Source: Neorhizobium sp. NCHU2750
GTDB taxonomy: Bacteria > Pseudomonadota > Alphaproteobacteria > Rhizobiales > Rhizobiaceae
DNA length: 64,000 nucleotides
NCBI RefSeq assembly: GCF_003597675.1
Contig: NZ_CP030827.1
Span: forward strand, 2,914,001 to 2,978,000
Direction: 5' to 3'
Position 1 is the stretch's first letter; every line of letters starts with the position of its first letter. The notes below the pieces were generated by a model. The model made no database searches and was not told where the DNA came from. It saw nothing but the letters and a program-made list of their open reading frames with translations. This document shows positions 8,506-24,864 of this stretch, piece after piece. The position numbers and the translations under genes were made by a program.

Positions 8506-9543
8506 TTAGAGAATGCCCGCCGCGGTCAGCATGTCGGTCACCTTGGCATTGTTGAGCTCGGTCGGCTCGACCTTCGGAGCATCGAGATCGGCAAGCGGCA
8601 CCAGCGCCTTGTTGGAAGCCTCGCCCTTGCCGACGGCATATTCGAACGAGGTTCCGTCCCGCAGGACCTTCTGGCCGCCCTTGCCGGCAACCCATTTCAG
8701 GAATGCCTGCGCCTGCGGCTTGTGCTTGGAAGAGGCAAGGATGCCGCCGCCGGAGATCGACACGAAGGCACCCGGATCCTGGTTCTTGAAATAATGCAGC
8801 GCGACGTTCTTGCTGTTCTCGCCGGTCTTCGCCTGATCGCCGAAATAATAGTAGTGATAGATCACCGCGCCCTCGAATTGGCCGGCATTGACGGCCTTCA
8901 TCGCCGTCGAGTTGCCGCGGATGGCGGTGAAGTTTTCCTTCATGCCCTTCAGCCAGGCGGCCGTCTGTTCCTCGCCCTTCAGCTGCAACAGCGCGCCGAC
9001 GATCGCCTGGAAATCGGCACCCGACGGCGAGGCAGCCCAGCGGCCCTTCCATTCCGGCTTGGCGAGATCCATGAGCGATTTCGGCAGCTTGTCCTCGGTG
9101 AGCTTGGTCTTGTCATAGGCAAACACGGTGGAACGTGCGGCAATACCGATCCAGTGGCCGTTGGCCGGGCGGAACTGCTCCGGCACCTCGTCGAGCGTTG
9201 CCTTGTCGACCGGTTCGAACAGGCCCTTGCCGTCGACCAGCGCCATGGCCGGCGAGTTTTCGGTCAGAAACAGGTCGGCTGGGGAGTTGGCCCCCTCCTG
9301 AACGATCTGGTTGGCAAATTCCATGTCGCCGCCATTGCGCACCGTCACGACGATACCGGTCTCCTCGGTAAAGGCATCGACCCATTCCTTGGTCAGCCCC
9401 TCGTGTTGGGCGTTGTAGATGGTAAGGCTGTCGGCCACCTGGGCGGAAGCCGGCGTGGAAACCGCAAGGATGGAAAAGGCCAGAGCAGACAGGGCCGGCG
9501 CAACGCCGGCCAGGAGAGAAGAAGTTTTCAAGATCGCCTCCAT
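8506..9543 (-). CDS. fbpA: Iron(III) ABC transporter substrate-binding protein, FbpA/SfuA-like
   Basis: A 345-residue periplasmic protein with a signal peptide ending at ASA (about residue 34). The mature start SLTIYNAQHEGLTKEWVDAFTEETGI and the block SPADLFLTENSPAMALVDGKGLFEPV are characteristic of FbpA/SfuA iron-binding proteins. The Tyr-rich stretch YHYYYF corresponds to the tyrosine pair that coordinates ferric iron in the family. First gene of the three-gene importer operon. Confidence 0.93.
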   Translation of the reverse strand: MEAILKTSSLLAGVAPALSALAFSILAVSTPASAQVADSLTIYNAQHEGLTKEWVDAFTEETGIVVTVRNGGDMEFANQIVQEGANSPADLFLTENSPAMALVDGKGLFEPVDKATLDEVPEQFRPANGHWIGIAARSTVFAYDKTKLTEDKLPKSLMDLAKPEWKGRWAASPSGADFQAIVGALLQLKGEEQTAAWLKGMKENFTAIRGNSTAMKAVNAGQFEGAVIYHYYYFGDQAKTGENSKNVALHYFKNQDPGAFVSISGGGILASSKHKPQAQAFLKWVAGKGGQKVLRDGTSFEYAVGKGEASNKALVPLADLDAPKVEPTELNNAKVTDMLTAAGIL

Positions 9544-9918
9544 GGAAAATTCACGGCGACCTCATAGCGAAACAAGACAAGAACAGTCAAGTTTATTCTC
9601 AACAAAAACAACTTAAAGAATTGGAATTAAACATTAAAAAACAACATGTTAAAACGTCCATCGAAACATTTCGATAGACTTAAAAAATCTCCGGTTGATT
9701 ACGGGGGTAAATAACCTTCAGTGAGCTGGATCCGTCGCGATGCGTCCTCGTTTGCACCTTTGCCGGACGCTGACTGCACGTTGATCCTGACAGACAGCTG
9801 AAAGCCGGGCGGTCACCACATGCCGCGGCATTCCGCTCTCCACAGCCTGCTATGCCTGTTCCCGAACGAATCAGCTATTGCTTAGATGAACACATCGGGA
9901 ACAAGCTTGCGGATCTGA
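9544..9918. promoter_or_regulatory. Divergent promoter region, iron importer / helicase
   Basis: 375 bases without a gene. The half next to fbpA (about 9570-9690) is strongly AT-rich against a GC-rich background, as expected of a promoter. It holds a perfect inverted repeat ATCGAAA-CA-TTTCGAT at 9660-9675, a possible regulator site. I could not match a RirA (TGA-N9-TCA) or Irr/ICE box. The half nearer the helicase shows no further structure. Confidence 0.5.
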
Positions 9919-11988
9919 ATGTCGGTCGCCTATCTGGAAAAACTCAATGAGGCCCAGCGCCGGGCCGTGGAACATGGATCGGATGTGCCGAATGGCGGCC
10001 CTGCCGGCCCCCTCCTCGTCATCGCCGGCGCCGGTTCCGGCAAGACCAATACGCTCGCCCATCGCGTCGCCCACCTGATCGTCTCCGGTGCCGATCCGCG
10101 CCGTATCCTGCTGATGACCTTTTCCCGCCGCGCCGCGACCGAAATGGGTCGCCGCGTCGAGCGCATCTGCAAACAGGTTCTGGGCGCCAATGCCGGCATC
10201 ATGACCGATGCGCTCGCCTGGGCCGGCACATTCCACGGCATCGGCTCCAAGCTTTTGCGCCTCTACGCCTACCAGATCGGCCTCGACCCGGATTTCACCA
10301 TCCACGACCGGGAGGATTCCGCCGACCTGATGAACCTCGTGCGCCACGAACTCGGCTTCTCCAAGATGGAAAGCCGTTTCCCGACCAAGGGCACCTGCCT
10401 TGCCATCTATTCCCGTGCGGTCAATTCCGAAACGCCGCTGGATGAAGTCCTGAAGAACTGGTTCCCCTGGTGCCAGGCCTGGGAAAAACAGCTGCGCGAG
10501 CTTTTCGCATCCTATGTCGAGGCCAAGCAGGCGCAGAACGTTCTCGATTACGACGATCTGCTTCTCTACTGGGCGCAGATGATGGACGAGCCGTCGATCG
10601 CCGAAGATGTCGGCGCCCGCTTCGACCATGTCATGGTCGACGAATACCAGGATACCAACCGGCTGCAGTCATCCATCCTGATGGGCATGAAACCGGGCGG
10701 ACGCGGCCTCACCGTCGTCGGCGACGACGCCCAGTCGATCTATTCCTTCCGTGCCGCGACGATCCGCAACATTCTCGATTTCCCGAAGACATTCGATCCG
10801 CCGGCCAATATCGTCACGCTCGACCGCAACTATCGCTCGACCAGCACCATCCTTGCGGCCGCCAACGGTGTGATCGAGCTCGCCCGCGAGCGCTTCACCA
10901 AGAACCTCTGGACCGACCGGCAGTCTGAAGAGCGCCCGCGCCTCGTCACCGTCAAGGATGAGGCGGAACAGGCCAACTATATCGTCGAGAAGGTGCTGGA
11001 AAACCGCGAGACTGGCATGACTTTGAAACAGCAGGCCGTGCTGTTTCGCGCCTCGCACCATTCCGGCCCGCTGGAAGTGGAACTGACCCGCCGCAACATT
11101 CCCTTCGTCAAGTTCGGCGGCCTGAAATTCCTCGACAGCGCCCATGTCAAGGACATGCTGGCGGCGCTGCGTTTTGCCCAGAACCCGCGCGACCGCGTCG
11201 CCGGCTTCCGGCTGATGCAGCTGATCCCCGGCATCGGCCCGCAGACCGCCGGCAAGATCCTGGAGGCGATCGCCACCGATCCGGAACCGCTTGCAGCCCT
11301 GCAGGAAATCCCGGCTCCGCCGCGTTCCGGTTCCGACTGGGGCGCCTTTGTCGAGATGCTCGCCGCGATCCGCCAGAGCGAAGGCTGGCCGGCTGACATC
11401 GGCACGGCCAGAGAATGGTACGAGCCGCATCTCGAACGCGTCCACGAGGATGCCGAGACCCGCAAGTCGGATCTGTTGCAGCTCGAGCAGATCGCCTCCG
11501 GCTATGCCTCGCGCGAACGTTTCCTCACCGAACTGACGCTCGACCCGCCGGACGCGACGAGCGATCAGGCCGGCGTGCCTTTGCTCGACGAGGATTACAT
11601 GATCCTCTCGACCATCCATTCGGCCAAGGGCCAGGAATGGCGCTCGGTCTTCCTGCTGAACTGCGTCGATGGTTGCATACCGTCCGATCTCGGTGTCGGC
11701 TCGACCGCGGAGATCGAGGAGGAGCGTCGCCTGCTTTACGTGGCGATGACGCGCGCCAAGGATCATCTCCACGTCATCACCCCGCAGCGCTTTTTCGTCC
11801 ACGGACAGCATTCACAAGGGGACAGGCATGTCTATGCCGCCCGCACCCGCTTCATTCCGGCAACGCTTCTGCAGTTCTTCGAGACCTCAGCTTGGCCGGT
11901 GGTTGCACCGATGTCCGATGCCGAACGCCAGCACCGCCAGCAGGTGAGGATCGACGTCACCGCCAGGATGCGCGGCATGTGGCGTTAG
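9919..11988 (+). CDS. ATP-dependent DNA helicase, UvrD/Rep family
   Basis: A 689-residue SF1A helicase with a 3'-5' unwinding role in repair or replication restart expected from the family. Motifs are in order: Q-motif region LNEAQRRAV, Walker A AGAGSGKT (36-43), motif Ia TFSRRAATEM, motif II VDEYQD (about 240-245), motif III GDDAQSIYSFRAA, motif IV DRNYRS, motif V LSTIHSAKGQEW (about 563-574) and motif VI EERRLLYVAMTRAK. All key residues are present. It is close to UvrD/PcrA in size but has no clear C-terminal Tudor-like extension, so I do not assign a symbol. Confidence 0.94.
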   Translation: MSVAYLEKLNEAQRRAVEHGSDVPNGGPAGPLLVIAGAGSGKTNTLAHRVAHLIVSGADPRRILLMTFSRRAATEMGRRVERICKQVLGANAGIMTDALAWAGTFHGIGSKLLRLYAYQIGLDPDFTIHDREDSADLMNLVRHELGFSKMESRFPTKGTCLAIYSRAVNSETPLDEVLKNWFPWCQAWEKQLRELFASYVEAKQAQNVLDYDDLLLYWAQMMDEPSIAEDVGARFDHVMVDEYQDTNRLQSSILMGMKPGGRGLTVVGDDAQSIYSFRAATIRNILDFPKTFDPPANIVTLDRNYRSTSTILAAANGVIELARERFTKNLWTDRQSEERPRLVTVKDEAEQANYIVEKVLENRETGMTLKQQAVLFRASHHSGPLEVELTRRNIPFVKFGGLKFLDSAHVKDMLAALRFAQNPRDRVAGFRLMQLIPGIGPQTAGKILEAIATDPEPLAALQEIPAPPRSGSDWGAFVEMLAAIRQSEGWPADIGTAREWYEPHLERVHEDAETRKSDLLQLEQIASGYASRERFLTELTLDPPDATSDQAGVPLLDEDYMILSTIHSAKGQEWRSVFLLNCVDGCIPSDLGVGSTAEIEEERRLLYVAMTRAKDHLHVITPQRFFVHGQHSQGDRHVYAARTRFIPATLLQFFETSAWPVVAPMSDAERQHRQQVRIDVTARMRGMWR

Positions 11989-13788: not shown

Positions 13789-14523
13789 TCACTCCTTCCG
13801 CGGATCGTCCCGCTTCTCCAGAAGCTCGATCTGGATCTGCTGCAATTCCGCCAGGCGCTCCCATTGCTTGGCCATCTGGTGGTCCATCTTTTCGTGCAAT
13901 TGCCGGATCTCGAGTTCGGCGCGCAGGTTGATCATGTAGTCGTTCTCCGCCCGCAGCCGATCCTTCTCTTCCTGCCGCTTCTGGCTCATCATGATCACCG
14001 GCGCCTGAAGGGCCGCGAGGCATGACAGAACCAGATTGAGAAGGATGAACGGATAGGGATCGAAAGGCTGGGAGAAGAGGCCCACGACATTGACGCCCAT
14101 CCAGATCACCAGAATGGCGATGAAGGACAGGATGAAGGTCCAGGACCCGCCGAAGGACGCCACCTTGTCGGCGACGATCTCGCCAAGGCTCGGCACTTTG
14201 TCTGTGGCGGCCTCGGAGCTTGCCTGCACCGTCAGCGTACCCTTTTCAAAACTGTCGAGTACCTTCTGGTCGAGGTCGGAAAGTTCTCCGCGCTCCTCCG
14301 CCAGAAGCCCCTCGACATAGCGCCGCCGGAACCGCGCCAGATCCTCGTCGCAGATCAGGCTGTCATGTACGCAGTCCTTCACCTCTTCGGCGATCATGTC
14401 ATAGAGATGCGGCCGGAGGTTTCCCGCCTTGTGCAGCTTCGAAAACGGAAAGGTCCGTCCGCAGACGACGCATTGCCCCGTATTGGATTGACCGCTCTTG
14501 GGGAGGGAGGAATGATGGTTCAT
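13789..14523 (-). CDS. DUF1003 membrane protein with N-terminal zinc ribbon
   Basis: A 244-residue protein. The N-terminus has CVVCGRTFPFSKL and later Cys residues (DCVHDSLICDEDL), compatible with a small zinc-binding domain. The DUF1003 core spans about residues 110-200: IVADKVASFGGSWTFILSFIAILVIWMGVNVV, then PYPFILLNLVLSCLAALQAPVIMMSQKRQEEKDRLRAENDY, the family hallmark with two membrane helices. A coiled coil follows. The start codon overlaps the end of the upstream ABC-protein gene by four bases (ATGA), so the two are translationally coupled. Function unknown. Confidence 0.9.
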   Translation of the reverse strand: MNHHSSLPKSGQSNTGQCVVCGRTFPFSKLHKAGNLRPHLYDMIAEEVKDCVHDSLICDEDLARFRRRYVEGLLAEERGELSDLDQKVLDSFEKGTLTVQASSEAATDKVPSLGEIVADKVASFGGSWTFILSFIAILVIWMGVNVVGLFSQPFDPYPFILLNLVLSCLAALQAPVIMMSQKRQEEKDRLRAENDYMINLRAELEIRQLHEKMDHQMAKQWERLAELQQIQIELLEKRDDPRKE

Positions 14524-16361
14524 TGTCTTTCACCGTCCGTCGCGCCGCCATCTGGACCAGCGCCATCTGAATTACCCTCCCTGGTCGTTCCCGCAGCCTC
14601 CGTATTCCCGTTTGGATGAAGCGGCGCCACGTGGAAGACCTTGGGCTTGAACTTCGCGGCAAACTCTTCCGAGCGCCCGACATAGATCAGCGTCGTGCCG
14701 TCAAGACCAGCCAGGACAGCGATCAACTGTTCGCGCACTTCCGGCTCCAGCCCTTCCAGAATATCGTCCATGACCAGCCAACCGGGCTTGCGCAGCACGG
14801 CATTGGCCACCTGCAGCGAGGCCTCCTCCTCCTTGTCCAGCACCCGGTCCCAGCGCTCCTGCCGGTCCAGTCGCTCCACATACCGGTCGAGCCCGACATC
14901 GACGAGCGCCGCCTTTAGGGCCTCGTCGCTCACGCCGCTAATACCGGAGGGATAGGTCATCACCTCACGCAGCGTCGCAGTCGGCAGATAGCCTTCCTGC
15001 GGCATCATGATCATGCGGTCCGCCTGCGGCAACGCGATCTTTCCCTTGCCCCAGGGCCAGATACCCGAGAGCGCCTGGAAAAACAGGTGCCGGTCGGTGC
15101 CCGGATCGCCGTTGACCATCACGCGCTCGCCGGCTGTCACCGAAAAGCCGTTCTCCTTCAGCCTGATGCCGTGGCCATCCGCTCCCTTGTCGGGCTCGCC
15201 ATAGACTTCCAGACCTTCCAGCGTGATGCCTTGATCGGCGCCACCATGCTCATAGGCGATGACCGAGCCTTCCTTGGCCGGCGTGTCGGTCATCAGAAGC
15301 GCGTTGCGAAAGAAGGAAACACGGGCAAGCGTTGCCCGCCAGTCGGCGATGACGCTGAAATTCTGCACATACCAGCGCAGCGCCGTATTCACCTGGTTGA
15401 AGGCGCCAACTGCCATCATTAGCCCGCCAAAGGTCAGTTCGCCGGAAAAATACATCGGCGAAGCGATGATGATCGGTGCCACCAGCGCCAGCCAGCCGAA
15501 ACCGGATGACACCCAGGTGAGATTGGTGAGCGCCCAGGCGAGCTTGCGCAGCATGCCCAGCACGCCGCCGATCGCCTCTTGCACACGGGCAAGCTCGTTC
15601 GGCTCGCCGCGGGCAAGCGTGATCGGCTTCATGTTCTCATTGGCCCTGACAAGCGCCGAACGCATGTCCGCCTCGCGGGCATAGCGGTCGGCATTGAGCC
15701 GCGCCAGCCTGCTGCCGACGACATTGCTGAGCACCGAACCGGTCAGCGCATAGAGAATGGTCGCCCAAAGCATGTAGCCCGGAATGACGAGATGATGGCC
15801 GGCGATGTTGAAGCCGAAATCCGTCGAGATCGACCACAGAACACCGATGAAGCTGCCGAGCAGGATCGTCGAATTGACGAGGCCGATGGCCAGTGCGGTC
15901 GTGTTCTCCGCCAGGATACGGGTGTCTTCATGCAGCCGCTGGTCGGGATTGTTGGCGATCGATCCGGCACTCGCAAGCTTCAGCGCCCGCCCTGGCGTCA
16001 GCCACACATTGACGAGATCGCGCGCCAGCCCCTCACGCATCTTCAGCGCCGTGATCTGGTTCAGCCATGTCTGTATGACGTTGAGCAGCGTCAGGCAGAA
16101 GGCGATGACGCCGAACACCCCGAGCTGAGTGAGGAACCCGGCCATGTCGCGCCGCTCCAGCGCATCGTAAAACGGCCCGTTCCATTCGTTCAGCCGGTAG
16201 GTCGCGTAGGTCGTGGCGATGATGATGACGAGAAGTGCCACCGCCAAAACCACCAGCTGCCGCTTGACCGGCGAGGCCCAGAAGGCCGCCGTCATCATGC
16301 GAAGCTGACCGGAAAGCGAAAGCTCGTAGGGCTCCGTCGGTGCTGCGGATGGTTCTGACAT
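14520..16361 (-). CDS. SbmA/BacA/YddA-like ABC protein with degenerate ATPase domain
   Basis: A 613-residue protein. Residues about 20-345 form an SbmA/BacA-type membrane domain (for example YRLNEWNGPFYDALERRDM, GLARDLVNVWL, NPDQRLHED), as in peptide and very-long-chain fatty acid transporters. The C-terminal half has the length and layout of an ABC ATPase, but its motifs are broken: Walker A reads GDPGTDRH (418-425, Lys missing), the signature region reads KEEEASLQVANAV instead of LSGGEQQR, Walker B ends in MDD instead of DE, and the switch His is replaced (YVGRS). ATP hydrolysis is therefore unlikely. The frame is intact and long, so this is not a simple pseudogene. Coupled to the DUF1003 gene. 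Confidence 0.88.
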   Translation of the reverse strand: MSEPSAAPTEPYELSLSGQLRMMTAAFWASPVKRQLVVLAVALLVIIIATTYATYRLNEWNGPFYDALERRDMAGFLTQLGVFGVIAFCLTLLNVIQTWLNQITALKMREGLARDLVNVWLTPGRALKLASAGSIANNPDQRLHEDTRILAENTTALAIGLVNSTILLGSFIGVLWSISTDFGFNIAGHHLVIPGYMLWATILYALTGSVLSNVVGSRLARLNADRYAREADMRSALVRANENMKPITLARGEPNELARVQEAIGGVLGMLRKLAWALTNLTWVSSGFGWLALVAPIIIASPMYFSGELTFGGLMMAVGAFNQVNTALRWYVQNFSVIADWRATLARVSFFRNALLMTDTPAKEGSVIAYEHGGADQGITLEGLEVYGEPDKGADGHGIRLKENGFSVTAGERVMVNGDPGTDRHLFFQALSGIWPWGKGKIALPQADRMIMMPQEGYLPTATLREVMTYPSGISGVSDEALKAALVDVGLDRYVERLDRQERWDRVLDKEEEASLQVANAVLRKPGWLVMDDILEGLEPEVREQLIAVLAGLDGTTLIYVGRSEEFAAKFKPKVFHVAPLHPNGNTEAAGTTREGNSDGAGPDGGATDGERQ

Positions 16362-16770
16362 CAGCGACTGGCTCCTCTCGCAATGCCCTATTGTCTATGC
16401 TCTCCGGAGACTTACCACGCGGTAAAGGGTTGTACAGCGCAGCAGGTTCACCTTCGATTTCATCCTGTCATCACCCTATATCGGTACGAACGCGTTCATC
16501 CGGGAGGGCATCTGCTTGCAGATCGATATGAAGAGCGCCAATGCCGACGGCCGTTTCGTCCACAGGAATGGCACGTCCTGTTGATTTCGCCTTGCCGGCA
16601 GCAACGAACGATAACCACGCAATCGTCCTTGCAATCTTCTCCTGCATTGCACAAACTCGCATGCAATGAAGATGCGTCGACCCGCTCAACGAGGTCGAAA
16701 AATCAGCATCGAACGGGAACGCCCCTCAAGGGCAAACGGGAGCGCCCCAAGGGGCATTCAAAGGGACAGC
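16362..16770. promoter_or_regulatory. Divergent intergenic region upstream of the ABC protein and the transglutaminase
   Basis: 409 bases without a convincing gene. Close to the transglutaminase start lie two neighbouring GC-rich palindromic stretches (GCCCCTCAAGGGC at about 16715 and GCCCCAAGGGGC at about 16743), the second ending just before the AAGGGA ribosome site, so RNA folding could affect translation. Short open frames here lack ribosome sites and family signals. Confidence 0.4.
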
Positions 16771-19700
16771 ATGTCGATCAAGGCGAGCATCTACCATCTC
16801 ACCCACTACATATACGACAAGCCCGTCCGCCTCGGACCCCAGATCATCCGCCTGAAACCCGCCGCCCATTCGCGCACCAAGGTCCTGTCGCACTCCCTGA
16901 AGGTCACGCCGGACAACCACTTCGTCAACCTGCAGCAGGACCCTTACGGCAACTACCTCGCCCGCTTCGTCTTTCCCGAACCGGTGAGCGAATTCAAGAT
17001 CGAGGTCGATCTCGTCGCCGACATGACGGTCTATAACCCCTTCGACTTCTTCGTCGAGGAAGAGGCGACCAAATGGCCGTTCAAATACCCCGAGGAACTG
17101 ATCGAGGACCTGTCGATCTACATGATCCCCGAGCCGCCCGGCCCGGCGCTGATCGAATATCTCAAGGGTTTCGACATGTCGCCGGACCAGCCGACGGTCG
17201 ACATGATCGTCGGCATCAATGCGCGGCTGCAGCAGGCGATCAACTACGTCATCCGTATGGAGCCGGGGGTCCAGACACCGGAAGAGACGCTCACTGCAGC
17301 GCTCGGCTCCTGCCGCGATACCAGCTGGCTTCTCGTCCAGATCCTGCGCAATCTCGGCTTCGCCACGCGCTTCGTCTCGGGCTATCTCATCCAGCTGACG
17401 CCTGACCTGAAGGCGCTCGACGGCCCTTCCGGCACGGAAGTGGACTTCACCGACCTTCACGCCTGGTGCGAAGTCTATCTGCCGGGCGCCGGCTGGATCG
17501 GTCTTGACCCGACCTCGGGCCTTCTGACCGGCGAAAGCCATATCCCGCTGGCAGCGACCCCGCATTACCGCAACGCCGCCCCGATTTCCGGCGGCTATTA
17601 CGGCGAGGCGGAAACCTCCTTCGATTTCGCCATGAACGTCGCCCGCGTCGCCGAGCATCCGCGCATCACCAAGCCGTTTTCCGATGAAAGCTGGGAAGCG
17701 CTGAACGATCTCGGCGAACAGGTCGATCGCGTGCTGCAAGCGCAGGACGTACGCCTGACCATGGGCGGCGAGCCGACCTTCGTGTCGATCGACGACTTCG
17801 AATCCGACGAATGGAATACCGGCGCCGTCGGCCCGACCAAACGCGAAAAGGCCGATGTCCTGATCCGCCGCCTGCGCGACCGCTTCGCGCCCGGCGGCTT
17901 CCTGCATTACGGCCAGGGCAAATGGTATCCGGGTGAAAGCCTGCCGCGCTGGACCTTCTCGCTCTATTGGCGCCGCGACGGTCTGCCCGTCTGGGCCGAC
18001 CAGAACCTGATTGCGAGTGAAGGCAAGAACTACAACGTCACCGAGGACGATGCCGGCAGGCTGCTGACCGCGCTCGCCGGCGAGCTCGATATCTCGCCCG
18101 ATTTCGTCGCCCCCGCCTTCGAGGATCCGGGCGAATGGATCCTCAAGGAAGCAAGCCTGCCCGACAATGTCGACCCGGCCAATTCCAGGCTCAAGGACCC
18201 GGAAGAACGCAACCGCATCGCCCGCGTCTTCGAGCGTGGCCTCAACAAGCCGACCGGCTATGTGCTTCCCGTCCAGGCCTGGAACTCGCGCGCCAGCGGA
18301 CGGACATGGCAGTCGGAAAAATGGACGACGCGACGCGGCCGCATCTTCCTCGTGCCCGGCGACAGCCCCGTGGGATACCGCCTGCCGCTGGGATCGCTGC
18401 CCTGGATACCGGCATCGCAATATCCCTATATCAACCCGATGGACCCGACGATCCCGCGTGCGGATCTGCCGGATTTCGCCGCCGATTCAGCCCGGCCGCA
18501 ACAGGCGGCAAGCTTCCAGCCCTCTTCACCCGATCAGCAGCCGCAGCAGCGTTCGGGCGCCGAGATCGGTGGCTTTGTCCGCACCGCGATCTCCGTCGAG
18601 CCCCGCGACGGCCGTCTCTGCATCTTCATGCCGCCGACTGTCTCGGTGGAAGAATATCTCGATCTCATCGCCTCGGCCGAGCGCGCCGCAAAGAGCCTCG
18701 GCCTGCCCGTGCATATCGAGGGCTATGCGCCGCCGCATGACGAGCGCCTCAATGTCATCCGCGTCGCACCCGATCCCGGCGTCATCGAGGTCAACATCCA
18801 TCCGGCCTCGAGCTGGAAGGAAACCGTCGACATCACCACCGCCGTCTACGAGGAGGCCCGCCAGAGCCGCCTCGGCGCCGACAAGTTCATGATCGACGGC
18901 CGCCACACCGGCACCGGCGGCGGCAACCATGTCGTGGTCGGCGGCGCCAACCCGAATGACAGCCCGTTCCTGCGCCGCCCCGACCTGTTGAAGAGCCTCG
19001 TGCTTCACTGGCAGCGCCATCCATCGCTCTCCTATCTCTTTTCCGGCCTGTTCATCGGCCCGACCTCTCAGGCGCCGCGCATCGACGAAGCCCGGCACGA
19101 TTCGCTCTACGAACTGGAAATCGCGCTTGCCCAGGTGCCCGCCCCCGGTCAGGGCGTGCCGCCGCTGCCGTGGCTGGTCGACCGCCTGTTCCGCAACCTC
19201 TTGACCGATGTCACCGGCAATACCCACCGATCGGAAATCTGCATAGACAAGCTGTTTTCGCCGGATGGCCCGACCGGCCGTCTCGGCCTTGTCGAATTCC
19301 GCGGCTTCGAAATGCCGCCGAATGCGCGCATGTCGCTTGCCCAGCAACTTCTGGTGCGTGCGCTGATCGCCCGCTTCTGGAAGAACCCGGCTCAGGGCAA
19401 GTTCGTCCGCTGGGGCACGGCACTCGCCGACCGCTTCATGCTCGGACACTATGTCTGGGCAGACTTCATGGACGTCCTTCAGGATCTTCGCGAAAACGGC
19501 TTCGATCTTCGCCCCGAATGGTTCGAGGCCCAGCTCGAATTCCGCTTCCCCTTCTTCGGCGAGGTCGAATACGAAGGCGCCAAGCTGGAACTCAGACAGG
19601 CGCTGGAACCCTGGCATGTCATGGGTGAACAGGGCGCCATCGGCGGCACCGTGCGCTATGTCGATTCGTCGATCGAGCGCCTGCAGGTGAGGCTGGAGAC

Positions 19701-20094
19701 CTCCAATCCCCAACGGTATGCGGTCGCCTGCAATGGCCGCGCCGTGCCGCTGAAGCAGACCGGGCGGTCGGATGTTTCCGTCGCCGGCGTGCGCTTCAAG
19801 GCCTGGCAACCGGCCTCCGGCCTGCATCCGGTCCTGCCGGTTAACACGCCGCTTACATTCGATGTTTATGATACATGGTCTGGCCGCGCCATCGGCGGCT
19901 GCAGATATCATGTTGCGCATCCCGGCGGTCGCAATTATGAGACCTTCCCGGTGAACGGCAACGAGGCGGAAGCGCGGCGTCTGGCGCGGTTCGAGCCCTG
20001 GGGTCACACGGCGGGATTTTATCCTTTGCTGCCGGAAACCCCTTCGCCCGAATTCCCCCTGACGCTCGATCTTCGCCGGCCGCAAGGAGTATGA
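16771..20094 (+). CDS. Transglutaminase-like protein with C-terminal DUF2126
   Basis: A 1107-residue protein starting [24 protein letters not shown], the N-terminal beta-domain of bacterial transglutaminase-like proteins. The catalytic triad is visible: C181 in [11 protein letters not shown]230 in LHAWCEVY and D246 in GLDPTSG. From about residue 320 on it is DUF2126, with [32 protein letters not shown], and [17 protein letters not shown] chose the ATG at 16771 because an AAAGGGA site precedes it; the in-frame extension to 16666 is low-quality sequence. First gene of a cluster with an ATP-grasp/alpha-E protein and a second transglutaminase, predicted in comparative-genomics work (Iyer and Aravind) to ligate or process a peptide. 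No member has a defined substrate. Confidence 0.93.
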
Positions 20095-20100
20095 CGAGAA

Positions 20101-22521
20101 TTGAGCACGAGCCCGGCAAGCGAACGACGCATGGATGAGGAGATCGAAAACGATCCGATCCTCGGCTATGCCGCGCTTCCTGGCGTGGCAGACGAAATGC
20201 TCGATGCCAAGGGTGAGATCAAGCCGGTCTGGCAGAACCTCATCGCCCATCTGAGCCGGCTGTCGGAAGGCGACCTGCACGAGCGTTTCGCCCGTGCAGA
20301 CCGTTATCTGCGCGATGCCGGCGTCTTCTACCGCACCTATGGCGCCCCCGGACAGGGCGGGCAAAGCGAGCGTAACTGGCCGCTGTCGCATATCCCGGTG
20401 CTGATCGACGAAAAGGAATGGGAAGGCATTGCCCGCGGCCTGAAGCAGCGTGCCGATCTGCTCGAGGCGATGATCGCCGACATCTATGGCGAAAACCGTC
20501 TCGTCCAGGAAGGTTTCCTGCCGCCGCAGCTCGTTGCCGCCAACCCGGAATTCCTGCGCCCGCTGGTCGGCGTGAAGCCGGTCGGCGGCCACTACCTGCA
20601 TTTCTGCTCCTTCGAGATCGGCCGTGGCCCCGACGGCAACTGGTGGGTCTTGTCCGACCGCACCCAGGCACCTTCGGGTGCCGGCTTCGCACTGGAAAAC
20701 CGCGTCGCCACCACCCGCGCCTTTTCCGATATCTACGGTGAAACGCACGTCCATCGCCTCGCCTCCTTCTTTGGCGCCTTCCGCGATGCGCTGCAGTCGC
20801 GCAAGCAGTATCCGGACGACCGGATCGCCGTCCTGTCGCCCGGCCCCGCCAACGAGACCTATTTCGAACACGCCTATATCGCCCGTTATCTCGGCTTCAT
20901 GCTGCTCGAAGGCGAAGACCTGACCGTCGTCAATAACCGCGTCATGGTCCGCACCGCAGCCGGGTTGAAGCCGGTCGGCGTCCTCTGGCGCCGCCTTGAT
21001 GCCTCCTATGCCGACCCGCTGGAACTCGACCAGAACTCCCATATCGGCACGGCCGGCATGGTGCAGGCGCTGCGCTCCGGCTCGCTGACACTGGTCAACG
21101 CGCTCGGCTCCGGCATTCTCGAAACCCGTGCATTGCTGGCATTCGCCCCGACCATTTGCCGCCACCTTATCGGCGAAGACCTGATCATGCCGTCGATTGC
21201 CACCTGGTGGTGCGGCCAGCAGTCCGAGCGTGAGCATGTGGCGAAGAATATCGAGCGCATGGTCATCGGCCCTGCCTATTCACGCCTGCCCTTCTTCGAC
21301 GACAACGGCCAGTCGGTTCTCGGCTCGTCCCTGCGGGCGACTGCCAAGGATACGGTCGGCGACTGGCTTGCCAACGAAGGTGCAAAGCTCGTCGGCCAGG
21401 AAGTCGTGACGCTCTCGACGACACCCGCCTGGGTCAACGGCAAGCTGACCCCAAGGCCGATGTCGTTGCGCGTCTTCGTTGCCCGCACCGAAAACGGTTG
21501 GGAAATCATGCCGGGCGGCTTTGCCCGCATCGGCTCCGGCGACGACGTTTCGGCAATCGCCATGCAATCGGGTGGTGCGGCCGCCGACGTCTGGATCGTG
21601 TCCGACAAACCGGTCACCAAGTCGACCCTGCTGCCGCCGGAGGAAAGTTTCACCCGCAACATGCCGGGTTCGCTGCCGAGCCGCGCCGCCGACAATCTCT
21701 ACTGGCTCGGCCGCTATATCGAGCGGGCGGAAGGCGCCCTGCGCATCCTGCGCTCCTGGCACCTGCGATATGCGGAATCGGCCAACCCCGACGCCCCGCT
21801 TCTCGCCGACGTGGCACGCTACCTGAAGTCCATCGACATGGACATGGCAAAGGCTGTGCCCGAACCGCTGCTCGCCAACATCAACAGCGCGATCTACTCC
21901 GCCAGCAATATCCGCGACCGCTTCTCGCCGGATGGCTGGCTGGCGCTGACCGACCTTGCCAAGACCGCCAAGCGCTTCCACGAGGCTGCCCAACCGGGCG
22001 ACGACGCAGCCCACGCGATGACCATATTGCTGCGCAAGCTCGCAGGCTTCGCCGGTCTCGTGCATGAAAACATGTACCGTTTCACCGGCTGGCGTTTCCT
22101 CTCGATCGGCCGCCATCTGGAGCGCGGCCTGCACATGACGCGCCTGCTTGCCCATCTCTCAGGCCCGGATGCGCCGGACGGCTCGCTCGACATGCTGCTT
22201 GAGATCGGCGACAGCGTCATGACCCATCGCCGTCGCTACAACGTCAATACCGCGCGGCTGACGGTGAACGACCTCCTGGCGCTCGACGCGCTCAACCCGC
22301 GCTCGATCCTCTTCCAGCTGAACGAGATCCGCACCGAGGTGGAAAAGCTGCCCAACGCCATGATCAACGGCCAGATGTCGCCCTTCTACCGCGAGGCGAT
22401 GCGACTGCATTCCGGCCTGGCGGTAATGACGCCCGAAACGATGAGCGCGGATGTCTATCGAAGGCTTGAGACGGATCTGGAAAATCTCTCCGATCTTCTC
22501 GGCCAGACCTATTTCAGCTGA
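20101..22521 (+). CDS. Circularly permuted ATP-grasp fused to alpha-E domain
   Basis: An 806-residue fusion. Residues about 30-500 are the circularly permuted ATP-grasp of the DUF404/DUF407 family (RNWPLSHIPVLIDEKEWEGIARGLKQRADLLEAMIADIYG; LSPGPANETYFEHAYIARYLGF; GSGILETRALLAFAPTICRHLIGEDL). Residues about 520-806 are the all-helical alpha-E (DUF403) domain beginning LPSRAADNLYWLGRYIERAEG. In many genomes these are two separate genes. ATP-grasp enzymes form amide bonds through acyl phosphates. The start is uncertain: TTG at 20101 lies 12 bases after AAGGAG, while the next ATG is at 20131; an ATG at 20091 is out of frame. The gene follows the transglutaminase by six bases. Confidence 0.93.
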   Translation: MSTSPASERRMDEEIENDPILGYAALPGVADEMLDAKGEIKPVWQNLIAHLSRLSEGDLHERFARADRYLRDAGVFYRTYGAPGQGGQSERNWPLSHIPVLIDEKEWEGIARGLKQRADLLEAMIADIYGENRLVQEGFLPPQLVAANPEFLRPLVGVKPVGGHYLHFCSFEIGRGPDGNWWVLSDRTQAPSGAGFALENRVATTRAFSDIYGETHVHRLASFFGAFRDALQSRKQYPDDRIAVLSPGPANETYFEHAYIARYLGFMLLEGEDLTVVNNRVMVRTAAGLKPVGVLWRRLDASYADPLELDQNSHIGTAGMVQALRSGSLTLVNALGSGILETRALLAFAPTICRHLIGEDLIMPSIATWWCGQQSEREHVAKNIERMVIGPAYSRLPFFDDNGQSVLGSSLRATAKDTVGDWLANEGAKLVGQEVVTLSTTPAWVNGKLTPRPMSLRVFVARTENGWEIMPGGFARIGSGDDVSAIAMQSGGAAADVWIVSDKPVTKSTLLPPEESFTRNMPGSLPSRAADNLYWLGRYIERAEGALRILRSWHLRYAESANPDAPLLADVARYLKSIDMDMAKAVPEPLLANINSAIYSASNIRDRFSPDGWLALTDLAKTAKRFHEAAQPGDDAAHAMTILLRKLAGFAGLVHENMYRFTGWRFLSIGRHLERGLHMTRLLAHLSGPDAPDGSLDMLLEIGDSVMTHRRRYNVNTARLTVNDLLALDALNPRSILFQLNEIRTEVEKLPNAMINGQMSPFYREAMRLHSGLAVMTPETMSADVYRRLETDLENLSDLLGQTYFS

Positions 22522-22545
22522 TCGACAGAGGGAGGACCGACGGAC

Positions 22546-23424
22546 ATGCTCTACGACCTTTCCCTCCATATGGGCTATGTCTACGACGTGCCGGCCTCCG
22601 GTGCCCGCCACGTCATCCGTGTTCTGCCGCTGTCGCTGCCTGACCGCCAGCGGCTGATTGCCGGTTCCGTCACCGTGTCGCCCACGGTCGACGAGAAGAC
22701 AAGCTTCATCGACTTTTTCGGCCAGCAGGCAACCTCCATCCTTCTCCGCGCACCGCATGAACGGCTTGATATCCGCATGCAGGCCCGCGTCATGGTGGAA
22801 GCGCCGACGATGACCGCCGACCTGTCGCCGACACTCGACGTGCTGCGCCGCGAGCTCGCCGAAATCTGGTCGGTCGACCCAACCTCGCCGCATCACCTGA
22901 CCGGCACGAGCCCACGCCTGCCCGATGAACCGGCGATCGCAGCCTACGCCCGAGAGACCGTGAAGCCGGGCCAGACCGTGCGCGAGATCGCCACTAGCCT
23001 CTGCAGCCGCATCCACAAGGACTTCAAATACGATCCTGACGCGACGACGGTCGACACGACGCCGAGGGAGGCCTTCAAGCTGAAGCGCGGCGTCTGCCAG
23101 GATTTCTCCCATGTCATGATCGTGGCCCTGAGAAGCCTCGGCATCCCCGCAGGCTACGTCTCCGGCTTCCTGCGCACTCTTCCTCCTCCGGGCAAGGAGC
23201 GGCTGGAAGGGGCAGATGCCATGCATGCCTGGGTCCGCGTCTGGTGCGGCGAAGCGCTCGGTTATGTCGAACTCGACCCGACCAACGACATCCCCGCCGG
23301 TAGCGACCATATCGTCGTCGGCTATGGCCGCGACTATTCCGACGTGGCTCCCGTCATCGGCGTACTGAAGGGTTACGGAAATCAGAAGGCCGATCAGGCC
23401 GTTGACGTGATTCCGGTCAAGTAG
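22546..23424 (+). CDS. Transglutaminase-like cysteine peptidase family protein
   Basis: A 292-residue protein with the short bacterial transglutaminase architecture: an N-terminal beta-domain (MLYDLSLHMGYVYDVPASGARHVIRVLPLS) and a catalytic domain with C184 in GVCQDFSH, H227 in AMHAWV and D244 in LDPTND. A GGGAGGA ribosome site lies nine bases before the ATG. It is 24 bases after the ATP-grasp/alpha-E gene and completes the three-gene cluster. Whether it cross-links, hydrolyses or ligates is unknown. The proteasome-like Anbu gene that often accompanies these genes is not present downstream here. Confidence 0.93.
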   Translation: MLYDLSLHMGYVYDVPASGARHVIRVLPLSLPDRQRLIAGSVTVSPTVDEKTSFIDFFGQQATSILLRAPHERLDIRMQARVMVEAPTMTADLSPTLDVLRRELAEIWSVDPTSPHHLTGTSPRLPDEPAIAAYARETVKPGQTVREIATSLCSRIHKDFKYDPDATTVDTTPREAFKLKRGVCQDFSHVMIVALRSLGIPAGYVSGFLRTLPPPGKERLEGADAMHAWVRVWCGEALGYVELDPTNDIPAGSDHIVVGYGRDYSDVAPVIGVLKGYGNQKADQAVDVIPVK

Positions 23425-23557
23425 ACCCGTTTTGGTGCCAATTACGCCAGATAGCTAAAATGCCAGCCTTTTCCTTAGGCCATCCTGCATGACCAATGGC
23501 GCATTAGACCATTAGATCGTCCGAATAGATCGGGCGCGGCCAGGGGTGGCAATCAAA

Positions 23558-24817
23558 ATGGGTATATTGAAGCGTATCGCGGACCACCGCGGCGGCAATT
23601 TCGGCATGATGACGGCAATCCTGCTGCCGGTCATGCTGGGTGCGGCCGGTTTCGCCGTCGACATAACCAACGCCGTTCAGGTGAAGTCGAGTTTGCAGGG
23701 TATTGCTGACTCCGCTGCCCTGGCCGCCGCGGCCGGCATGTCCCAGAACAACCTCACCGTTGCTCAGGCACAAGATCTCGCCGCTGACTTCCTGGTCAGC
23801 CAGATCCTCTCCAACGGCATCGCCGATGCCGACAGCAGCGCGGAAAAGGATGCCCTGGAAAAACAGATCCGCGCGGCAACGACCGTCACTGCCACCAATA
23901 CGGCGGTGAGCGGATCCGAGGCCAGCTATCAGGTCACGCTCGACACCACCTATCCGATGGACCTGAATGCCATCACCAGCGTTCTGGGCGGCAAGACCAT
24001 CGATATCGGTATTCATTCGGTGGCCACCAGCGGTTCCGATGGCTCCGGATCGGGCGGCCGCACCGGCATTTCGATGTATCTGGCGCTGGACCGCTCCGGC
24101 TCGATGTCCTTCGCCACCACTACCGTCGACACCACCCAGAACAAATGCGTCAACTACTCGGCATCGAACTGGCAATATAAGGATGTCCAGAAGGGCCAGA
24201 AGAACTACATCGCACCGTCTTCGCCCTGCTACGTCCGCAAGATCGATGCGCTGAAGACCGCTGCAACCAGCATGTTTGGTTCGCTGAACAAGGCCGATAC
24301 GACGTCGACCTTGGTCCGTGTCGGTGCCGTGTCCTACACGGACGTGACCCAGACCGCCTCGGCGATGACCTGGGGCACGAGCAGCGCGGCAAAATATGTA
24401 GCGGCGCTTCCAAGCGTGCCGACCGGCGGAACCGATGCCACCGGCGCCATGGACATCGTCTACAAGGCGCTGGTCAGCACCAACGCGACCGAAGCCAACG
24501 CGCATGCCGCCAACAAGAACACCACCTTCAACCGCTTCATCGTGCTGATGACCGATGGTGAAATGACGGGAGCCTCGGCCAGCTGGGATCAAACGCTGGA
24601 CAAGAAGGTGCGCAGTCAGTGCGATACCGCCAAGAAGGACGGCATCAAGATCTTCACCGTCGCCTTCATGGCCCCTGACAACGGCAAGTCGCTGCTCAGC
24701 TACTGCGCCACATCCAGCGACTACTACTACAGCCCCGACGATATGAGCTCGCTCGTTTCCGCCTTTGGCGACATTGCCGAAAAGGCCGCCAAGAAAGTTG
24801 TCCGTCTTACCAACTGA
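23558..24817 (+). CDS. TadG-like protein with N-terminal Tad anchor and vWA domain
   Basis: A 419-residue protein. The N-terminus (RIADHRGGNFGMMTAILLPVMLGAAGFAVDITNAVQVKSSLQGIADSAALAAA) is the Flp-pilus TadE/TadG-type anchor: one membrane helix followed by a small-residue helix. From about residue 170 there is a von Willebrand A domain with an intact MIDAS start DRSGSMS (from D178), a second motif TGGTDATGAM and the LMTDGEMTG strand. I prefer the ATG at 23558, eight bases after a GGGGTGG site, over the GTG at 23546. No other Tad genes are nearby. Confidence 0.88.
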   Translation: MGILKRIADHRGGNFGMMTAILLPVMLGAAGFAVDITNAVQVKSSLQGIADSAALAAAAGMSQNNLTVAQAQDLAADFLVSQILSNGIADADSSAEKDALEKQIRAATTVTATNTAVSGSEASYQVTLDTTYPMDLNAITSVLGGKTIDIGIHSVATSGSDGSGSGGRTGISMYLALDRSGSMSFATTTVDTTQNKCVNYSASNWQYKDVQKGQKNYIAPSSPCYVRKIDALKTAATSMFGSLNKADTTSTLVRVGAVSYTDVTQTASAMTWGTSSAAKYVAALPSVPTGGTDATGAMDIVYKALVSTNATEANAHAANKNTTFNRFIVLMTDGEMTGASASWDQTLDKKVRSQCDTAKKDGIKIFTVAFMAPDNGKSLLSYCATSSDYYYSPDDMSSLVSAFGDIAEKAAKKVVRLTN

Positions 24818-24835: not shown

Positions 24836-24864
24836 AAAAGCCCCGCCTCTCGCGGGGCTTTTTT
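24836..24864 (+). terminator. Intrinsic terminator after the TadG-like gene
   Basis: The stem AAAAGCCCCGC / GCGGGGCTTTT with a short CTCTC loop is followed by a run of six T. It separates the vWA gene from the glycogen operon. Confidence 0.9.

Follow-up and report, generated by a model that had tools for sequence, protein, structure and literature searches.

The 64,000 nt stretch of Neorhizobium sp. NCHU2750 analysed here (contig NZ_CP030827.1, positions 2,914,001 to 2,978,000; hereafter the window) lies on a contig of 4.32 Mb (genome size 6.35 Mb) and carries a three-gene cluster encoding two transglutaminase-like proteins and, between them, a circularly permuted (CP) ATP-grasp protein fused to an alpha-E domain. 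The cluster belongs to a known but uncharacterised system and is ordinary among its members. We found that the fused protein, encoded by gene 2, keeps the glutathione synthetase fold and none of the eight core residues of its split relatives; judged by sequence, this product, on which the ligase idea of an earlier first-pass annotation was based, is probably not a working ATP-grasp ligase. A split set with intact signature lies elsewhere on the same contig, and we see about even chances that the window cluster is the accessory module (B) of a two-layer amide-bond system whose core module (A) is this split set, some 330 kb off. The features of the cluster are:

16362..16770, + strand: leader region, between gene 1 and a divergent ABC transporter gene
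16771..20094, + strand: gene 1, 1107 aa; transglutaminase-like domain (C181/H230/D246) fused to DUF2126, a glutamine synthetase (GS)-like putative amidoligase
20101..22521, + strand: gene 2, 806 aa; CP ATP-grasp fold (about residues 27-501) with ATP/Mg residues lost, and alpha-E helical domain (525-805)
22546..23424, + strand: gene 3, 292 aa; stand-alone transglutaminase-like protein by Pfam, triad C184/H227/D244

The first-pass annotation had correctly placed these tightly spaced open reading frames (ORFs), with gaps of 6 bp between genes 1 and 2 and 24 bp between genes 2 and 3. The ORF of gene 1 is open from 16666 (1142 aa), and the alignment of its homologues starts at 16771. Gene 2 starts with a TTG at 20101, and an alternative ATG at 20131 would give 796 aa; its close relatives come from Aliirhizobium, Neorhizobium and Rhizobium, and several of them are 796 aa long, matching a start at 20131. 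An Rfam scan of the window at the gathering threshold gave zero matches.

Signature residues of the fused protein

The description of gene 2 as a fusion was confirmed by Pfam (CP_ATPgrasp_2/1 and Alpha-E, scores far above cut-off), and its ATP-grasp part retains the glutathione synthetase fold. For the comparison we call split ATP-grasps type A and those fused to alpha-E type B. The A rows (n = 31) are the 30 of 40 loci passing 40% identity and 400 aa, plus the copy from the own genome. The B rows (n = 93) are the window and 92 of 94 matched loci, 6 of 100 loci being without match; left out were L139, which is cut by a contig end, and L052, where the best match was not the fused gene. The B sample is dominated by Hyphomicrobiales and Rhodobacterales.

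All eight core residues were present in 31 of 31 A rows. Of the B rows 51 retained none, 30 one, 11 two and a single row three, gaps being scored as residues not kept. Gene 2 of the window has 0 of 8, with S, R, R, G, L, N, Q and A in their places, and the lost positions include both putative Mg ligands, both putative ATP lysines and the glycine-rich loop. The first-pass annotation had this ATP-grasp making amide bonds, and had named beforehand a loss of ATP-binding residues on alignment as speaking against that; such a loss is what the alignment finds in gene 2, and the claim is not borne out.

In the numbering of the own-genome A-type protein (locus L007), E169 and N171 of the motif LEDNxRxPSG have become mostly G/A/S and R in the B rows, K330 (DDK) is R in 72 of 93 and K in 2, K377 is still K in 4 of 93, N468 (VVNSS) is mostly A or S, and the GGYG loop is unconserved among the B rows themselves. 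Pairwise alignment of gene 2 to the A-type protein gives 29% identity, with E169, N171, K330, K377 and N468 all in ungapped stretches. The CP_ATPgrasp_1 match of gene 2 ends at profile position 295 of 332, while that of the A-type protein runs to 332. The same picture emerges from a profile alignment of gene 2 to the solved structure 3n6x (M. flagellatus 'putative glutathionylspermidine synthase'), an A-type protein (805 bits to the A-type profile) which carries the EDN, DDK, K..GGYG and VVNSS motifs, whereas gene 2 is without them. The catalytic residues of glutathionylspermidine synthetase/amidase and of eukaryotic glutathione synthetases are missing from gene 2 as well, and a search for PF03738 gave no match in gene 2 up to E 1 and none in the own genome. 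Fused proteins of Tsukamurella (Actinomycetota; gapped at two of the eight columns) and Caballeronia have 0 of 8 core residues and split proteins of Deinococcus and Caballeronia have 8 of 8, the check outside Pseudomonadota consisting of one fused and one split protein. In a tree of the 31 A and 35 of the 93 B ATP-grasps the two types stand apart with support 100/100.

By its sequence the B type is not simply decaying, since a motif of its own, DRTQAPSG, is conserved in place of the A motif (of the 93 rows, D is kept in 92, R in 89, Q in 80, P in 92, S in 88 and G in all 93). Other B-specific residues are R187 (89/93), E341 (92/93) and E434 (86/93).

The cluster among relatives and the split module

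In gene 1 Pfam finds Bact_transglu_N, Transglut_core and DUF2126 (PF09899; 1337 bits, residues 314-1137 of the 1142-aa ORF). The first-pass description of gene 1 as a transglutaminase holds for this domain and its triad, but it overlooked DUF2126, which spans about 820 of the 1107 residues and is most of the gene. The triad (1107-aa numbering) is invariant in 55 of 55 aligned rows including the window, and so are the GS-like motifs of DUF2126, E334, E673/N675, H720 and E842/R844. GS-type structural matches listed for the gene 1 model include GmaS and 1-naphthylamine GS; fold matches are taken from those listed, and an unlisted fold is no sign of absence. Diphtheria toxin rows in the Foldseek list for this model (probability < 0.1, root mean square deviation > 20 A) were treated as chance. 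Gene 3 has the domains Bact_transglu_N and Transglut_core, and its triad is complete too, as had been stated for both transglutaminases.

Scanning a collection of genomes at species level with a gene 1 alignment of 25 rows gave at least 592 relatives, and the loci compared here are the best 80 of these, hence close relatives, with titles mostly from Hyphomicrobiales and Rhodobacterales. The fused ATP-grasp lies downstream of the DUF2126 gene in 74 of 80 loci and a transglutaminase gene at most 5 kb downstream in 72; of the remaining eight, the sequence stops short in L117, L139, L156 and L164, and the other four are genuine exceptions (L134, L144, L148, L166). With such recurrence the association is not due to chance. 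Gene 3 has matches at E 1e-20 in 72 of the 80 named loci, with C, H and D in 71 and one ending before the Asp; in some loci the best match may instead be the paralogous gene 1 domain. A search confined to proteins similar in length listed 120 homologues of gene 2, every one of them with both domains; those with a name are mostly from Rhizobiaceae, and their public record name is 'circularly permuted type 2 ATP-grasp protein'. As these loci and homologues share them, the fusion and gene order are ordinary.

The split A cluster of the same genome (locus L007, contig C1, about 2597.8-2601.0 kb) comprises, in locus coordinates:

7743/7767-9218: A-type ATP-grasp, intact signature
9231-10172: alpha-E
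10206-11045: transglutaminase

An ORF resembling, by eye, an MFS transporter follows, and the cluster is without Anbu. The first-pass annotation had noted that the Anbu protease gene is absent from the window cluster; a search of the own genome likewise gave no match, the sole proteasome-family match being HslV beside HslU.

Iyer et al. 2009 reportedly grouped CP ATP-grasp, GS-like ligase and alpha-E with a peptidase in a potential peptide-tagging system. The membership in such a system claimed for the window cluster agrees with our comparison, as the domain families (CP ATP-grasp, alpha-E, transglutaminase and DUF2126) are clustered in the predicted neighbourhood; the window differs by having no Anbu, a signature-less fused ATP-grasp and the intact split set at a distance. 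The Anbu operon of P. putida (PP_2685-2688) and Y. bercovieri has the ATP-grasp, alpha-E and transglutaminase families in common with the window cluster. It corresponds to our A cluster, except that the latter is without an Anbu gene, whereas the window has a transglutaminase-DUF2126 protein and a fused ATP-grasp/alpha-E protein, and the B-type ATP-grasps form a separate group.

Co-occurrence was counted throughout in the same 200 Pseudomonadota genomes. We found alpha-E in 112, A-type ATP-grasp in 111, Anbu in 68 and DUF2126 in 63; every one of the 111 A-type genomes is represented by a row at 48% identity or more, and in five there is an extra row at 35-37%, four of those being long fused frames. 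A-type ATP-grasp is present in 63 of 63 DUF2126 genomes, in 48 genomes without DUF2126 and in 66 of 68 Anbu genomes. As DUF2126 always occurs with A, and 29 of the 63 DUF2126 genomes are without Anbu, B depends on A in this sample while Anbu is optional. Anbu is thus not strictly defining for a system of the Iyer type, and neither the fusion nor the absence of Anbu is an unusual feature. That DUF2126 replaces Anbu was considered and rejected: among the 112 genomes with alpha-E, 34 have both, 29 DUF2126 alone, 33 Anbu alone and 16 neither, which is no significant exclusion (Fisher p 0.18), and their genes stand side by side in several genomes.

A and B clusters are neighbours in some genomes, such as Caballeronia (L214) and Pseudooceanicola (L132, with Anbu); some regions were picked for nearness of both alpha-E types, and no rate of A-B neighbourhood is drawn. 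In L132 (Pseudooceanicola pacificus) the B cluster adjoins, back to back, an A cluster made up of Anbu, transglutaminase, alpha-E and ATP-grasp. Locus L052 (genome G126) has A-type ATP-grasp and alpha-E beside a fused ATP-grasp/alpha-E and a transglutaminase gene, with DUF2126 neither in the locus nor listed for the genome. Two genomes of one family, G194 and G197, have A-type ATP-grasp and alpha-E and neither DUF2126 nor Anbu; five sampled congeners have both.

Possible roles of the two modules

We suggest that the A module, with intact ATP-grasp, alpha-E and transglutaminase, would be the core. The bond-forming enzyme of the B module may be the DUF2126 domain of gene 1, with its putative GS fold, which is likelier to be the ligase than the fused ATP-grasp. 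Gene 2 would be a pseudo-ATP-grasp that partners A and DUF2126 in a non-catalytic or repurposed role and that together with its alpha-E domain might hold or present a substrate, probably what the A-type ATP-grasp makes or a protein bearing that product. The two transglutaminase-like proteins, of which one is joined to the putative ligase and the other stands alone, would hydrolyse or transamidate the amide made by DUF2126, a ligase/amidase pairing resembling the glutathionylspermidine synthetase/amidase cycle. Glutathionylspermidine amidase belongs to another domain family than the window transglutaminases. Related operons, and only these, point to a possible use under nitrogen limitation. More tentatively, and with some doubt, we speculate that the B layer, not found without A, uses an anciently catalysis-dead ATP-grasp/alpha-E adaptor to hand an A-made conjugate to a putative GS-fold ligase and transglutaminase. 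If so, what many genomes have annotated as a fused 'ATP-grasp ligase' is a pseudo-ligase. The A/B split directs ligation assays to the A-type ATP-grasp and DUF2126 and away from the fused protein, and the two-layer model predicts no effect of a B deletion where A has already been deleted, which opens the function to testing. About half of the sampled Pseudomonadota genomes (111/200) have the A-type part, and no product of the system was found in the literature.

Several points weigh against the two-layer model. The swap at K330 in the B rows (72/93) is to the similar residue R. We take E169 and N171 to be the Mg ligands and K330 and K377 the ATP lysines, from the enzymology of glutathione synthetase and GspS and from motif order; 16 sampled GspS/YgiC proteins (L202, one of 17 loci of the family, was excluded) have the order R.D, E.NaD, SNK, KP..R.G.N, Q, which parallels the A-type order. 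Since hhalign, at one setting, gave no significant match between the A-type ATP-grasp and the GspS/YgiC family, these equivalences rest on motif order and on that enzymology. That the invariant DUF2126 residues are GS ligands is presumed, hhalign at one setting gave no significant match of DUF2126 to five glutamine synthetases of the own genome, and the predicted model of DUF2126 has a predicted local distance difference test (pLDDT) score of only 72. The four exceptions named above have full flanks and DUF2126, yet no fused gene or second transglutaminase within 5 kb downstream, hence gene 2 is not always linked to DUF2126. Further, the leader of the window cluster has no sigma-54-like site at up to 2 or up to 3 mismatches, so sigma-54 nitrogen control of this cluster is unsupported; the only match for the window, with 3 mismatches at 16329, is inside the neighbouring gene. 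Across 77 named loci such sites (at most 3 mismatches) occur in 26, with 15 expected from mononucleotide shuffles. According to the available parts of PMC6376114, the ATP-grasp of the Y. bercovieri Anbu operon frees phosphate from ATP, which may be plain ATP hydrolysis, with no stimulus by glutamate or glutamine, and neither stable nor specific complexes were detected. Our literature search met no biochemical data on any B protein.

The same parts of PMC6376114 report no peptidase activity of Y. bercovieri Anbu, and the published assays that we found, in sources available in part, concern Anbu and one ATP-grasp. The accessible text of PMC5666114 ties the Anbu operon to the peptide-synthesis system that Iyer et al. 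2009 predicted, while its own authors prefer protein degradation. Judged by titles and abstract openings, none of the papers listed in a literature search deals with the fused ATP-grasp being inactive.

Rather than being silenced, gene 2 may have been repurposed, with a conserved DRTQAPSG/ETR pocket binding another ligand (nucleotide, amino acid or peptide) as a sensor or a different catalyst. We hold this to be unlikely, if worth keeping in view: R187, E341 and E434 are strongly kept across the sampled phylum, but scaffold proteins also keep pockets, and gene 2 has diverged more quickly than gene 1 (median identity of the domains to the window 59 and 52, against 75 and 71).

A salvage of amines or nitrogen, in which DUF2126 would glutamylate an amine like GmaS and the transglutaminase-like amidases would release it in nitrogen-poor cells, seems to us quite improbable. 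It draws on GmaS and 1-naphthylamine GS being among the structural matches, and on reports concerning related operons as far as these sources were available: in P. putida PP_2686-2688 are up under nitrogen limitation and PP_2685 hardly, in the first strain column (PMC7801951), PP_2685 and PP_2688 are up on nitrate versus ammonium (PMC8050072), the B. cenocepacia cluster I35_5080-83, with a large transglutaminase protein among its members, is NtrC-dependent (PMC5491218), and an association with urea-metabolism domains is described for marine metagenomes (PMC3597751). The Caballeronia cluster has a sigma-54-like site with one mismatch 230 bp upstream.

The model of the first-pass annotation, in which gene 2 is an active ATP-grasp ligase making a peptide or peptide tag that the transglutaminases remove or transfer, has become very unlikely. 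It could appeal to the fold, to the high Pfam scores and to the use of ATP by a related ATP-grasp, as told in the available parts of PMC6376114, but all eight A-type core residues are replaced in gene 2, at least five of the eight are not kept in each of the 93 B rows (gaps included), and the loop region is unconserved even within B. A role of the cluster in marking proteins for breakdown by Anbu has next to no chance: Anbu adjoins A-type genes in many genomes and the gene 1 homologue in several (G010, G036, G064, G076, G002), but with no Anbu match in the own genome and none in 29 of 63 DUF2126 genomes the idea is already contradicted here unless another protease substitutes.

Neighbouring genes

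The genes and features on either side of the cluster are:

14520-16361, - strand: SbmA/BacA-like ABC transporter with its own ATPase region, divergent from gene 1
23546-24817, + strand: Tad/VWA-domain protein, 121 bp past gene 3
24845-24858: terminator-like hairpin, after the Tad/VWA gene and before glgP and glgB

The SbmA/BacA-like transporter is a neighbour of the peptide-uptake type and was matched in only 2 of 80 loci. The next gene downstream encodes a vWA protein, as the first-pass annotation had it. The order of Tad/VWA gene and then glycogen genes recurs in about 15 of 80 loci, mostly of Rhizobiaceae. A functional tie to the vWA or glycogen genes was rejected, the arrangement being local synteny of Rhizobiaceae and close kin (vWA 15/80, GlgP 16/80, GlgB 18/80). 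Two of the GlgB matches, in L156 (29%) and L166 (55%), are on the other strand.
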